DNA from: Acidimicrobiia bacterium
GTDB lineage: Bacteria > Acidobacteriota > Vicinamibacteria > Vicinamibacterales > UBA2999
NCBI GenBank assembly: GCA_016871255.1
Contig: VFZH01000011.1
Location: 1 to 45,681, forward strand
DNA length: 45,681 nt
Direction of reading: 5' to 3'
Of the stretch, positions 1 through 5,084 are shown piece by piece. Numbering within the stretch: the stretch's first letter is position 1; each line of letters opens with the position of its first letter. A program made the translations under genes and the position numbers. The notes under the pieces were generated by a model. The model made no database searches and was not told where the DNA came from. It worked only from the letters and a program-made list of their open reading frames with translations.

Positions 1-406
1 TGGCCGATGCGGTCGTAATCACGTAGGCGGTGTCACAACACGCGTCGAGATCGGCCGGCGGATCGGCCTCCTTCGACGGCCGGCAACTGACCGCCTGGAT
101 GACGTACGTCCCCGGGTTCAGCCCCTCGACGCGGAAGTTCCCCGTCCGGGTCGTGAGCGCACAGAGGAGCACCGCGCCTGCCTCATTCAGGACCTGAATC
201 GGCACCTCGGAGAGCGGCCCCGAGGGTCCGATGAGGATCCCCTCGATCCGTCCGCGACCCGTGAACTCCTGCCTGGGTTGCTGCGCCAGCGCCGGCGGCA
301 GGGCCAGGAGAACTCCAAGCAGGAGACCCAGCACTCTACGTATGCAACCCCTGGAGAACGCCGGGGCGACACAAGTAACGGAAACCGGGACTACAGATCT
401 GCTCAT
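1..406 (-). CDS. Secreted protein, N-terminal part (carboxypeptidase-regulatory-like domain), runs off left edge
   Basis: This open frame starts at ATG 404-406 and continues through the window edge, so only about 135 residues are visible. The first 41 or so residues form a long signal peptide: a basic stretch (RGCIRR), a hydrophobic core (VLGLLLGVLLALPPALA) and a likely cleavage before QQPRQ. The segment after it (GRIEGILIGPSGPLSEVPIQ, then a short segment ending GNFRVEGLNPGTYVI) has the pattern of a carboxypeptidase-regulatory-like beta-sandwich. In Acidobacteriota this often precedes a TonB-dependent receptor or other large surface protein. The C-terminal part is missing, so receptor, adhesin and plain secreted protein cannot be told apart. 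It lies 44 bp downstream of the NtrC-like regulator on the same strand. No Shine-Dalgarno precedes the ATG; a TAAAGT hexamer ends 7 nt before it. Confidence 0.7.
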   Translation of the reverse strand, partial: MSRSVVPVSVTCVAPAFSRGCIRRVLGLLLGVLLALPPALAQQPRQEFTGRGRIEGILIGPSGPLSEVPIQVLNEAGAVLLCALTTRTGNFRVEGLNPGTYVIQAVSCRPSKEADPPADLDACCDTAYVITTASA

Positions 407-450: not shown

Positions 451-1545
451 CTATGCCTTCTCACACCCCGCCCCATCTCGACGAATCGAGAGCTGGCGCA
501 CCTTCCGATACAGGTTGGTGCGCTGAATACCGAGAGCACTGGCCGCTTCGCCCATCCGCCAGCGGTGGCGTGCCAGGGTGCGAACCACGTACTCGCGTTC
601 GAACCGGTCCCGTGCCTCCTTGAGTGTCCCTTGTGTCGTGAAGGCAACATCGATGCCGTCGAGGCTCAGGTTCCGGAGCACATCGAGAACTTTGACCTTA
701 CGCCCCTCGCACCGGTCCACGAGCAGGTCCACGACCCGCTTCAGCTCGGCCACGTTGCCTTTCCAGGGCAGCGCCGCCAGCAGCGCCACCGTCTGTCTGG
801 ATGGCGCAAACTGCGGAGCCTGTCGCGCGACAGCGGCGTCGACGAACAAATCACGAATCAGCCGGCCGACGTCACCCTGCCGGCGACGCAGCACAGGGAG
901 CCTGATGGCGGGCCGTGACAGGTGTCGCCGAAGCACAGGCGTCAGCGGATCGCTGAGCGATCGGTCCCCCGAAGGATCGAGGGACGCGATCACGAGCGAC
1001 TGAACCGATGCTCGCTCCCGCATGCCTCGGCCGTCCTCGACCCATATTTCGCCGTCACGGAGGACTCGCGCCAACGTGGCCTGCGCCCGAGGGGCCAGTT
1101 CCTGGACGTCGCGGAGGAACAGCGTGCCCCCGAGCGCCTGATGGACGGGGCTCCCGGCATTCGTGACCGCCAACCCATCGGGGCCCACGCTCCGGTCGCG
1201 CCAGCAGGCCCCGAAGAATGCCAACCCGATGTCCCCACAGGCCGAACAGTCCAGCACCACAAAGGGGCGGTCGCTCCGAAAACTGCGGGTCTCAGCGTTC
1301 AACAGCGTCGCGAGTTCCGTCGGCTGGCCCGGGACGAGCGCGCGGTGAAACGCCCGCGCCGTCAGCTCGCGCCCGGTGCCGGCCTCTCCCGTGATCAGCA
1401 GTCCACCGCGACCCCGAAGCGCCTCGCTGAACTGCGAAGCCGCCTCAGACATGTCATATGACCGAAACATGCGCGGGAGCTGGCGTCGGGCGAGGCCGCC
1501 CCGGGGGCGTTCTACCGGCGATATATTGGCTGTAACTTGTTGCAT
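451..1545 (-). CDS. NtrC-family AAA+ regulator with Fis-type HTH, degenerate ATPase motifs
   Basis: A 364-residue protein with the layout of a bacterial enhancer-binding protein: an AAA+ region at about 35-270 and a Fis-like helix-turn-helix at about 320-355 (AASALGIQRTNLYRKVRQL). There is no recognisable receiver or sensory domain. The key motifs are altered. Walker A reads GEAGTGRE, with Arg for the essential Lys. Walker B reads GGTLFLRDV where family members have LFLDE. The GAFTGA loop that contacts sigma-54 is absent (the region reads FFGACWRDRS). It therefore probably binds DNA without acting as a sigma-54 ATPase; this is inference. ATG 1545 lies 7 nt after the upstream lipoprotein's stop codon and has no Shine-Dalgarno. 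The secreted-protein gene follows 44 bp downstream and is a natural candidate target. Confidence 0.8.
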   Translation of the reverse strand: MQQVTANISPVERPRGGLARRQLPRMFRSYDMSEAASQFSEALRGRGGLLITGEAGTGRELTARAFHRALVPGQPTELATLLNAETRSFRSDRPFVVLDCSACGDIGLAFFGACWRDRSVGPDGLAVTNAGSPVHQALGGTLFLRDVQELAPRAQATLARVLRDGEIWVEDGRGMRERASVQSLVIASLDPSGDRSLSDPLTPVLRRHLSRPAIRLPVLRRRQGDVGRLIRDLFVDAAVARQAPQFAPSRQTVALLAALPWKGNVAELKRVVDLLVDRCEGRKVKVLDVLRNLSLDGIDVAFTTQGTLKEARDRFEREYVVRTLARHRWRMGEAASALGIQRTNLYRKVRQLSIRRDGAGCEKA

Positions 1546-1551
1546 TACAAA

Positions 1552-1557
1552 ATTATT
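1552..1557 (-). promoter_or_regulatory. Candidate -10 for the NtrC-like regulator (leaderless arrangement)
   Basis: AATAAT on the minus strand is followed by exactly 6 nt and then ATG 1545. It sits in a short AT-rich patch that overlaps the lipoprotein's stop codon. The spacing would start the mRNA at the ATG. No good -35 is visible. Confidence 0.35.
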
Positions 1558-2215
1558 GTGTCGTATGACCTACAATCTGGTTCTGAAGCCCTTTTCCGTC
1601 GGTGTCCCGCTCGACCAGGACGACTTCTCCACTCTCGCCGTAGGTGAAACGGAGGGTTGGAACGCCGAGTCCGGCGTGGTCGAAGGCCGCCGATGCCACC
1701 GAATAGGTCTGTTGACCATTCGTCGACGGTGTGTTGAGGCGGTAGGTCTCCCACTTGTCCGGCCGCCCGTCGCCGTTCGTATCCTCCTGGCTGCGCTCGA
1801 GCCTCCAGTCCGCGTAGAACTCAAGCCGGTCGAAGACGCCGTCTCGCCGGGTGGACACCTCGATGCGTTCAAGGCTTCCCGTAGGGTCGTAGAAGGCGAC
1901 CGAGTCCATCACACCGTCGTTTCTGGAGGCGAAACCCACCTTTTCGAGCGTGCGATCCGGAGTGTAGAAGTCCCACCGCTCCGCGTGCCCGTTCTCGTCG
2001 AGATCCAACTCGACGCGCACGACCCGGCTGCCGTCCATGACGCTGACGGAATCCCGCGTGCCGTTCCGCGTCAGATCCACATCGAGCCGAACCAGCCGGC
2101 CGGTCTCTGGATCGTACTCCGCGGTTGGCGGGGCACCATCAGGCGCGGGCGTACACGCCACGGCCAGAAACGGAGAGACGAAAAGCAGCGACAGGATTCG
2201 GGAGCGATAAGGCAG
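1553..2215 (-). CDS. Repeat-containing lipoprotein, probable CTG start
   Basis: Function not recognised. From GTG 2161 the frame begins directly at ACTPAP, which would remove any signal peptide. The same frame read from CTG 2213-2215 gives a basic start (LPYRSR), a hydrophobic core (ILSLLFVSPFLAVA) and a lipobox-like LAVAC. No ATG, GTG or TTG lies between the in-frame TGA and GTG 2161, so CTG is the best start, with a purine-rich GAGAGG about 8 nt upstream. The mature part has roughly 20-24 residue imperfect repeats with D/N-G-D or N-G motifs (RNGTRDSVSV, DENGHAERWDFY, RNDGVMDSVAFY, TNGDGRPDKWETY), suggesting a beta-hairpin repeat, possibly calcium-binding. It leads a two- or three-gene minus-strand transcript with the regulator. 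The CTG start is inference; the open frame is seen. Confidence 0.65.
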   Translation of the reverse strand: MPYRSRILSLLFVSPFLAVACTPAPDGAPPTAEYDPETGRLVRLDVDLTRNGTRDSVSVMDGSRVVRVELDLDENGHAERWDFYTPDRTLEKVGFASRNDGVMDSVAFYDPTGSLERIEVSTRRDGVFDRLEFYADWRLERSQEDTNGDGRPDKWETYRLNTPSTNGQQTYSVASAAFDHAGLGVPTLRFTYGESGEVVLVERDTDGKGLQNQIVGHTTQ

Positions 2216-2318
2216 CGCTTCGCCCTCTCACCTACACGCAGGGCCGCGGATCGATAGGCCCATTCGAGCGACTGCACACACGATGCCAGCCTGGCCCGAA
2301 AGCGTTATCGGCTGATCA

Positions 2319-2346
2319 ATTGTAGGACGTAAGCCCGGTGTGTCAA
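2319..2346 (-). promoter_or_regulatory. Strong sigma-70-type promoter upstream of the lipoprotein
   Basis: On the minus strand a perfect TTGACA (-35, 2346-2341) is followed by a 16-nt spacer and TACAAT (-10, 2324-2319, five of six consensus bases). Transcription would start near 2312, giving a leader of about 97 nt before CTG 2215. A short leader frame of 11 codons (ATG at about 2260) ends at the TGA just before the GAGAGG. Confidence 0.7.
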
Positions 2347-2378
2347 GGAAACGACGGCTGGATCCGAACTGATACCGA

Positions 2379-3462: not shown

Positions 3463-4017
3463 TCAGTACGGGCGCACGTCGGCGGCATCCACTTCGACGC
3501 TCACGGCCTGCCCGATCAGGTCGACCGAGAGGACGAGACGGGCGTGCGCGCCCTTGCGCACGAGGCGGCCGACCACGCCGCGAAGGGGTCCGTGCTTGAC
3601 CTCCACCATCATGCCTTCGCGAATCAGCGGGCACGGATCGTAGGCCAGCTCGCTCTCGACCAGCTGCCGGATGCCCTGGATTTCGTGCTCGGGAATGGGC
3701 GCCAGCTCGCCCTCGAACGACACGATGCTCACGACACCGGCACACTTGAGCACGGGCATCCGCGCAACGGGATCGAAGCGGGCAAAGCAGTATCCCGGGA
3801 ACAGGGGCCAGTCGATCTTCTTCTTGCGGTCCTTCCAGCGGCTCCAGCGAGTCACCGTGGGCAGGAACGTCTCGATCTGCTTGCGCTCGAGCTGGGTGCG
3901 CACCACCTGCTCGTGGCGCGACCGGGTCCAGATGGCGAACCACGCGACGGCCGCCTCGCCGGGGACGGCTTCTGCGCCGGCCGTTGCCGGCACGGCCAGG
4001 TGCAGATCGTCGCTCAC
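3463..4017 (-). CDS. NusG/RfaH/UpxY-like transcription elongation factor
   Basis: A specialised NusG paralogue of 184 residues. The NGN domain (about 25-118) starts at WFAIWTRSRHEQVV and includes the family signature FLPTVTRW and PLFPGYCFARF. The KOW domain (about 128-184) contains VEVKHGPLRGVVGRLVRKG. NusG proteins bind the RNA polymerase clamp; paralogues usually promote antitermination in long polysaccharide operons. Its GTG start overlaps the stop of the upstream chaperone gene (GTGA), suggesting translational coupling. The housekeeping nusG normally lies next to secE and rplK, which are absent here, so this is probably a paralogue. The link to the exporter genes upstream is inference. 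Confidence 0.88.
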   Translation of the reverse strand: MSDDLHLAVPATAGAEAVPGEAAVAWFAIWTRSRHEQVVRTQLERKQIETFLPTVTRWSRWKDRKKKIDWPLFPGYCFARFDPVARMPVLKCAGVVSIVSFEGELAPIPEHEIQGIRQLVESELAYDPCPLIREGMMVEVKHGPLRGVVGRLVRKGAHARLVLSVDLIGQAVSVEVDAADVRPY

Positions 4018-5084
4018 TGGGCCGTTCCGGTGATCGCGCTCCGCTGCTCGAGCGCGATGTCGTACGCCTTCTTCAGCTCCTCGTTGCGCCACTGCACGAT
4101 GGCCTGGCTCCGGAGCCGGTCCACGAACTTCCTGATCTCCACGCCCAGCTTCTCCTGCGACACGCGCTCCGCGATCGCCGGGCGCGCCTCGGCGAACGAC
4201 TGGACCTCCCGCGGACTGCGGCTCTCCAGTTTCAGGATCTGGTACCCGGCAGACACCCGGATCGGAGAGGCCACGTCGCCCACCTCGAGCCCGTCGATCA
4301 GCGCCTGCAGCGGCGGGGCGAGGTCGTTCATCCTGAACGGCCCGATCAGGCCGCCGTTGGCTTTCGACGGTGAATCGGAGACCTCGCCGGCCAGGCGCGG
4401 GAACGGCTCACCCTTGAGCAGCCGCTCGTGCACGGCTGCCGCCTCGGCGCGGGCAGCCTCGTCCTCCGCGACGTTTACCGCGTCGTTGACCACGGCGACA
4501 CCGATCAGGATCTCGCGCAGCGTGACCTCTGCGGGAGTGGAAAAAGCTTCCCGGTTCTCGTCGTAATACGCCCGGGCTTCCTCTTCGGTCACGCTGATCC
4601 GGTTCCGGATTTCCTGCGACTGCACCTGGCTCACCAGCATCTGCCGCTCCATGTTCCGCCGGAGTTCGGCCATCGTCATGCTTTCCTGCGCCAGCGCCGC
4701 CTGGAAGTCGGCGTCGCTCTCGATCCGGTTCTCCTGCTTGATGTTCTCGACGATGCTGGCAAACTGCTCATCGCCCAGCACGTAACCGAGCTCCCGGCCC
4801 CGCTGCACGAGCAGCAGTTCGTCGACGACATTGAGAATGAGCCCGGGCGTGACCTCCTCGACCGCCCTCCTGAGCACGTCGTTGGTGACGTTGCCGCCGG
4901 CGAGCTCGGGGCGCTGGCGGAGCAGGGCGACCTGCCGCTGCTCGAACTCGGATTTGGTGACGATCTCGCCGTTCACCTTGACGACCACCTGCTCGATGAT
5001 CTGGGCGCGGGGCAGAACGGACGCGACCGTGACGACCAGGGCGACGAGCAGCACGGTCCCGGAACGCTGACTTCGGGCTCGCAT
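4014..5084 (-). CDS. Periplasmic peptidyl-prolyl isomerase/chaperone (SurA/PpiC type)
   Basis: A 356-residue exported protein. A basic N-terminus (MRARSQRSG), a hydrophobic segment (TVLLVALVVTVASVL) and a cleavage near PRAQ form the signal peptide. Residues about 30-170 resemble the SurA N-terminal chaperone region (VVVKVNGEIVTKSEFEQR, VDELLLVQRGRELG). One parvulin-type rotamase domain follows at about 180-290 (STPAEVTLREILI, GGLIGPFRMNDLAPPL, VSAGYQILKLESR). E. coli SurA has two such domains. Proteins like this help fold outer-membrane proteins. ATG 5084 was chosen over an upstream ATG at 5108 because GGAGGA lies 6 nt before it. Confidence 0.9.
   Translation of the reverse strand: MRARSQRSGTVLLVALVVTVASVLPRAQIIEQVVVKVNGEIVTKSEFEQRQVALLRQRPELAGGNVTNDVLRRAVEEVTPGLILNVVDELLLVQRGRELGYVLGDEQFASIVENIKQENRIESDADFQAALAQESMTMAELRRNMERQMLVSQVQSQEIRNRISVTEEEARAYYDENREAFSTPAEVTLREILIGVAVVNDAVNVAEDEAARAEAAAVHERLLKGEPFPRLAGEVSDSPSKANGGLIGPFRMNDLAPPLQALIDGLEVGDVASPIRVSAGYQILKLESRSPREVQSFAEARPAIAERVSQEKLGVEIRKFVDRLRSQAIVQWRNEELKKAYDIALEQRSAITGTAQ

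Follow-up and report, generated by a model that had tools for sequence, protein, structure and literature searches.

A degenerate NtrC-like regulator in an exopolysaccharide-export operon with a predicted sigma-70-type promoter

The regulator gene and the operon around it

We analysed a stretch of 45,681 nucleotides (hereafter the window), which is the complete contig C11 of a 3.91-Mb genome assembly (99.8% complete, 243 contigs). A degenerate regulator is encoded there within a minus-strand operon with the following features.

1553..2215, minus strand: putative lipoprotein (c5) with Asp/Asn-Gly repeats, 7 bp upstream of the regulator
451..1545, minus strand: degenerate NtrC-like regulator (FAM), 364 aa, without an N-terminal receiver domain
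1366..1389, minus strand: dismantled Walker A motif GEAGTGRE of the regulator (R59 replaces Lys)
1105..1122, minus strand: dismantled Walker B motif LFLRDV (DE pair missing)
484..624, minus strand: Fis-type DNA-binding domain (residues 308-354), with the recognition region LGIQRTNLYRKVRQL
2..406, minus strand: secreted CarboxypepD_reg-like protein, first structural gene of the exopolysaccharide-export operon, truncated by the contig end

The regulator matches the Pfam models Sigma54_activat (PF00158, 45 bits) and AAA lid (PF25601, 32 bits), and its HTH_8 domain (PF02954, residues 313-351, 39 bits) is intact. The GAFTGA loop is missing when the sequence is read. The open reading frame and the Pfam matches thus agree with what an earlier note on this DNA had described, i.e. 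an Arg in Walker A, no DE pair in Walker B, no GAFTGA and an intact Fis-type domain. The 44-bp gap that it had given between the regulator stop and the secreted-protein ORF (2-406, minus strand) was also confirmed. GC content by codon position (0.73/0.51/0.76) is close to that of adjacent genes, which suggests a coding frame. The genome encodes rpoN and has 20 other matches resembling enhancer-binding proteins (EBPs); a search of genome contigs retrieved only ordinary EBPs. A structure predicted from a 4-row alignment had a mean pLDDT of 54, too poor for use.

The window covers contig C11 completely, so the ORF of the secreted protein is cut at position 1. Contig C156 of the same genome starts inside a gene whose product ends in NASPSN (compare ASPSR in the secreted family), and its next genes are homologues of EpsL (46% to L109), EpsE (63% to L113) and Wzc (54%). 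From this gene end and this order, the window operon probably continues on C156 past the assembly break, a join that we infer. The CarboxypepD_reg secreted proteins carry a hydrophobic tail rich in Gly and Ala and end in a conserved ASPSR; their genes lie between the regulator and EpsL in L095, L111, L109 and others, and at C156:1-184.

The start codon of c5 is uncertain (the aligned position is a CTG at 2215-2213), and the protein has no Pfam match. Its gene lies upstream of the regulator in 23 loci and also heads exopolysaccharide operons devoid of the regulator (L144-L147). Such regulator-less operons exist in relatives, hence these operons can do without the regulator. Since mirror-frame ORFs in this GC-rich DNA obscured simple maps of neighbouring genes, we counted neighbours by cluster. 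Among 49 loci, the same-strand downstream genes include an EpsE/Wza-like exporter (Poly_export, SLBB) in 36, an EpsL-like barrel in 29, a Wzc-like kinase in 18 and a CarboxypepD_reg secreted protein in 15. The earlier note had taken the secreted gene as a possible target of the regulator. This gene belongs to a conserved exopolysaccharide-export operon, and in the window c5, the regulator and the secreted gene are probably co-transcribed from the promoter upstream of the regulator rather than from one in the 44-bp gap.

A clade with joint loss of the ATPase motifs

A first sequence search covered 59 genomes, the window's own included, and found homologues at E < 1e-30 in 11 others. In a second search, a profile of 14 members was run against 152 genomes of the class. 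Bit scores exceeded 320 for degenerate proteins, were about 294-320 for a group of the sister order (f16, L097-L106, the closest intact relatives) and remained below about 288 for ordinary EBPs. The degenerate set comprises 50 proteins, encoded by 38 genomes that span 10 families of the window's order. Their presence is patchy (38 of the 129 genomes of the order, 3 of the 34 in the window's own family), and an even sample of 198 genomes from the phylum yielded no degenerate member beyond the order. In this sample, the distribution is therefore order-wide and not, as had been suggested, widespread in the phylum. No paper retrieved in our literature search describes this family.

The maximum-likelihood tree resolves three clades: the 50 degenerate proteins (support 100), f16 (98) and the ordinary EBPs (97). 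With a root among the EBPs, the sister group of the degenerate proteins would be f16. The window protein clusters with L109 and L113 (99), with which it has in common an insertion after the Walker A helix; its branch is long (1.06 versus 0.29-0.35 for these sisters). Many f5 and f15 genomes encode two paralogues: one has a pseudo-receiver and mostly GxxGTGR, the other lacks the receiver and has its Walker A erased. Mixed dimers of the two are possible. Two-paralogue genomes are G082, G087, G088, G093, G096-G098, G102, G104, G106 and G036.

The motif losses recur together across this clade, a point that the earlier note had proposed to check. None of the 50 members has GAFTGA or the Walker B DE pair, and the Walker A Lys is found in 2 of 50 versus 20 of 20 intact relatives. 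The sensor I Thr-Asn/Ser is lost in the clade (n = 50) and the sensor II Arg is kept in 8 members. The two arginine-finger positions are kept in 44/50 and 46/50; the window protein has lost both (T202, H208). Degenerate receivers, where present, miss the acidic pair and the Lys, and most keep the phosphorylatable Asp, while f16 receivers are canonical. GAFTGA and all the ATPase motifs are retained in f16 (10/10) and in ordinary EBPs of the same genomes (10/10). Because the losses are conserved in 50 relatives while f16 and ordinary EBPs keep every motif, they do not reflect chance or error, and we reject a local sequencing error or local decay as their cause. The Fis domain is the best-conserved part of the degenerate proteins, with a mean pairwise identity of 67% versus 40% in the AAA core (83% and 79%, respectively, in f16).

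Promoter, putative operator and leader element

The region upstream of the operon contains the following elements. The scans for -24/-12 and -10 elements used simple scoring schemes of our own.

2340..2375, minus strand: putative operator with half-sites GTATC (2375-2371), GTCGT (2355-2351), N6 and GACAC (2344-2340), over the -35 box
2319..2346, minus strand: sigma-70-type promoter TTGACA-N16-TACAAT before c5, the regulator and the secreted gene
2273..2289, minus strand: best -24/-12-like site of the window, CTGGCATCGTGTGTGCA, 13.3 of 22.2 bits, in the operon leader
2217..2235, minus strand: conserved leader element GTAGGTGAGAGGGCGAAGC, ops/JUMPstart-like
3463..4092, minus strand: NusG paralogue of the UpxY antiterminator family, in a conserved upstream block

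A TTGACAC with a -10 box at 16-18 bp lies upstream of the first gene of the operon in 22 of 31 loci (1.4 in shuffled sequences, maximum 6). In 27 of the 50 members, a GTATC is found 24-27 bp ahead of TTGACAC, and a middle half-site at fixed distance completes a palindrome, GTRTC-N6-GAYAC. This palindrome (GTATC-N6-GATAC or a variant) overlaps or precedes the -35 box in operons of the degenerate clade; in the window, the middle half-site GTCGT is degenerate. The pattern GTATC-N23..27-TTGACAC occurs a single time in the window's own 3.9-Mb genome, at this operon, and class-wide it has roughly 105 matches, about 26 of them directly upstream of genes of the regulator clade. Between the regulator and the secreted gene, 29 loci hold 29 half-sites (5.2 in shuffled sequences, 1 with reversed pentamers). 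For example, the related loci L117, L118, L121 and L126 have a perfect GTATC-N6-GATAC 4 bp past the stop, which together with a third half-site lies ahead of a TTGAC box. We infer from these patterns that the palindrome is the predicted operator of the regulator.

The f16 loci share with those of the degenerate clade the 16-bp geometry of the palindrome and closely resemble them in the recognition region (LGIERTNLYRKMKQL in f16). They differ in that all the motifs of their REC-AAA-Fis proteins are intact, the half-site is GTTGC instead of GTATC (several loci have GTTGC-N6-GCAAC or half-sites), and a sigma-54 site lies about 90 bp past the palindrome. A Gln/Glu change in the recognition helix was considered as the origin of the GTATC versus GTTGC difference and found no support: Glu-bearing degenerate members also have GATAC or GTGTC sites. 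In f16, a -24/-12-like site is present within 450 bp after the gene, scoring 12.6-18.6 bits in 9 of 10 loci and 11.9 in the tenth. No such site was found in the same interval of the degenerate loci (best 9.2, median 3.5, n = 44). The search for -24/-12 elements that the earlier note had proposed thus gave none after the gene in these 44 loci, and one 13.3-bit site in the window's leader.

Downstream of the promoter, a 19-nt element (GTRANNNASRGGGCGRAGC, with small variations) occurs in 36 of 49 degenerate loci, always on the sense strand, and never in the equivalent place in f16. Genomes carry 1-4 copies of it, and most of the inspected copies precede exopolysaccharide genes, with or without the regulator. 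The window's genome has further copies at C34:12457-12475 (plus strand) and C95:603-621 (minus strand). A known riboswitch was considered and discarded, as five loci and the window leader gave no Rfam match. In the non-template strand, the core GCGAAGC/GCGGAGC might fold into a mini-hairpin. In E. coli, the ops element is GGCGGTAGCGTG; the window element is similar to it, not identical. The product of 3463-4092 passes the curated model NF033644 (114.1 bits, cutoff 100) and is the only NusG paralogue of the genome besides the housekeeping one. Its gene is flanked by SurA-like PPIase and Dus genes, and this block is kept with the regulator in several families. We regard the UpxY-family protein as the likely partner of the leader element. 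The latter looks like an ops site, and the pair may be a counterpart of the RfaH/ops system, which works via a leader element of this kind (PMC2871177, PMC7819879). As in RfaH/ops and UpxY antitermination, a NusG paralogue is combined here with a short leader element, of core GGGCGRAGC, before polysaccharide operons.

Known relatives, mechanism and competing explanations

Several derivatives of EBPs act independently of sigma-54: VpsR, TyrR, DhaR, HupR and some alphaproteobacterial NtrC (PMC3162934, PMC10274813). The closest parallel in context is VpsR of Vibrio cholerae, an EBP descendant lacking GAFTGA, linked to exopolysaccharide and acting at sigma-70-type promoters (PMC3162934; PMC10274813). 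Unlike in VpsR, the receiver is here degenerate or absent, Walker A, Walker B and the sensor residues are all lost, and the window's regulator gene is located inside the operon. The VpsR structure 7v2b is matched weakly by sequence (E 3e-8) and ranks under NifA and NtrC1. The clade is probably separate from the VpsR lineage, the resemblance being likely convergent. Loss of GAFTGA and use of sigma-70 promoters are also known for NtrC of Rhodobacter capsulatus and Caulobacter, TyrR, DhaR and HupR (PMC10274813, PMC3162934). However, R. capsulatus NtrC still requires ATP binding, and Caulobacter NtrC both binding and hydrolysis (PMC10274813), whereas in the degenerate clade the nucleotide site itself is dismantled.

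The explanation that we favour, with a probability of roughly 0.7, is that the protein descends from an EBP, has given up ATP hydrolysis and sigma-54 contact and, at sigma-70-type promoters, regulates both its own gene and the exopolysaccharide-export operon by binding DNA. The joint loss of motifs, the DNA-binding domain as the best-conserved part and the sigma-70-type promoters with a palindrome argue for the sigma-54-independent DNA-binding regulator proposed in the earlier note. The regulator would bind GTATC-N6-GATAC as its operator, and the dead AAA module would serve in dimer or oligomer assembly, perhaps in ligand sensing. The regulator would activate transcription by contacting the sigma-70 RNA polymerase while bound to sites that overlap the -35 box or lie immediately before it. 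As to the direction of control, we lean somewhat towards an activator, with a repressor or a protein doing both as the less favoured outcome. We give about even odds to a broader scenario, in which the ATPase, the receiver and the sigma-54 contact were dismantled, the operator geometry was kept, the exopolysaccharide promoters shifted in step from sigma-54 to sigma-70, and a UpxY/ops-like antitermination system provides an additional gate on the operons. The degenerate GTCGT half-site, the lost arginine fingers and the long branch of the window protein count against the favoured explanation, and the window copy may therefore be drifting. The presence of the window's best sigma-54-like site in this leader and the regulator-less exopolysaccharide operons of relatives also speak against it.

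The overlap between the palindrome and the -35 box raises the alternative that the protein is a repressor, which blocks RNA polymerase at its own promoter and that of the operon and is freed by a signal. In most loci GTATC-N6-GACAC indeed puts one half-site within TTGACA. Yet in L117, L118, L121 and L126 the palindrome and the third half-site lie entirely upstream of the -35 box, in an activator-like position, and the equivalent palindrome of the intact orthologues is upstream of the sigma-54 site, as for activators. We consider repression rather unlikely.

Another intact EBP might drive the operon via sigma-54 at 2289-2273, with the degenerate protein modulating it, e.g. by mixed oligomers or competition for sites. 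The best sigma-54-like site of the window does sit in this leader (p about 0.008 for the region), where the local regulator cannot serve sigma-54; comparable leader sites exist in L118 (18.0) and L081 (13.4), both distant, and rpoN and the 20 EBP-like matches would provide the partners. However, as a general feature upstream of c5 the site does not hold, since p falls below 0.01 in only 3 of 23 loci, and 57 bp upstream of 2289-2273 there is a sigma-70 promoter with much stronger conservation. The closest relatives, L109 and L113, have none, hence we treat the window's site as unexplained and this alternative as improbable.

That a former activator is simply losing its function in the window's lineage, as the long branch, the lost arginine-finger positions and the patchy presence (3 of 34 family genomes) might suggest, is improbable given an intact 364-codon frame of coding-like composition, an intact HTH, a conserved promoter and operator, and the same degenerate form conserved order-wide.

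Single activators without GAFTGA, such as VpsR, are known, but there is little documentation of how sigma-54 activators driven by ATP become plain sigma-70 regulators. The present case allows a direct comparison of intact sister proteins, degenerate proteins and the promoters of both, and the predicted operator is directly testable. Under the broader scenario, both the state before (palindrome and -24/-12 element, in the sister order) and the state after are open to test. It is important to highlight that genes of the degenerate clade will be mis-annotated as sigma-54 activators. For the bacteria themselves, an uncultivated or rarely cultivated group, the system offers a first entry point into how exopolysaccharide export is controlled; the regulator probably governs slime or capsule production in a simpler fashion than sigma-54 activators do.
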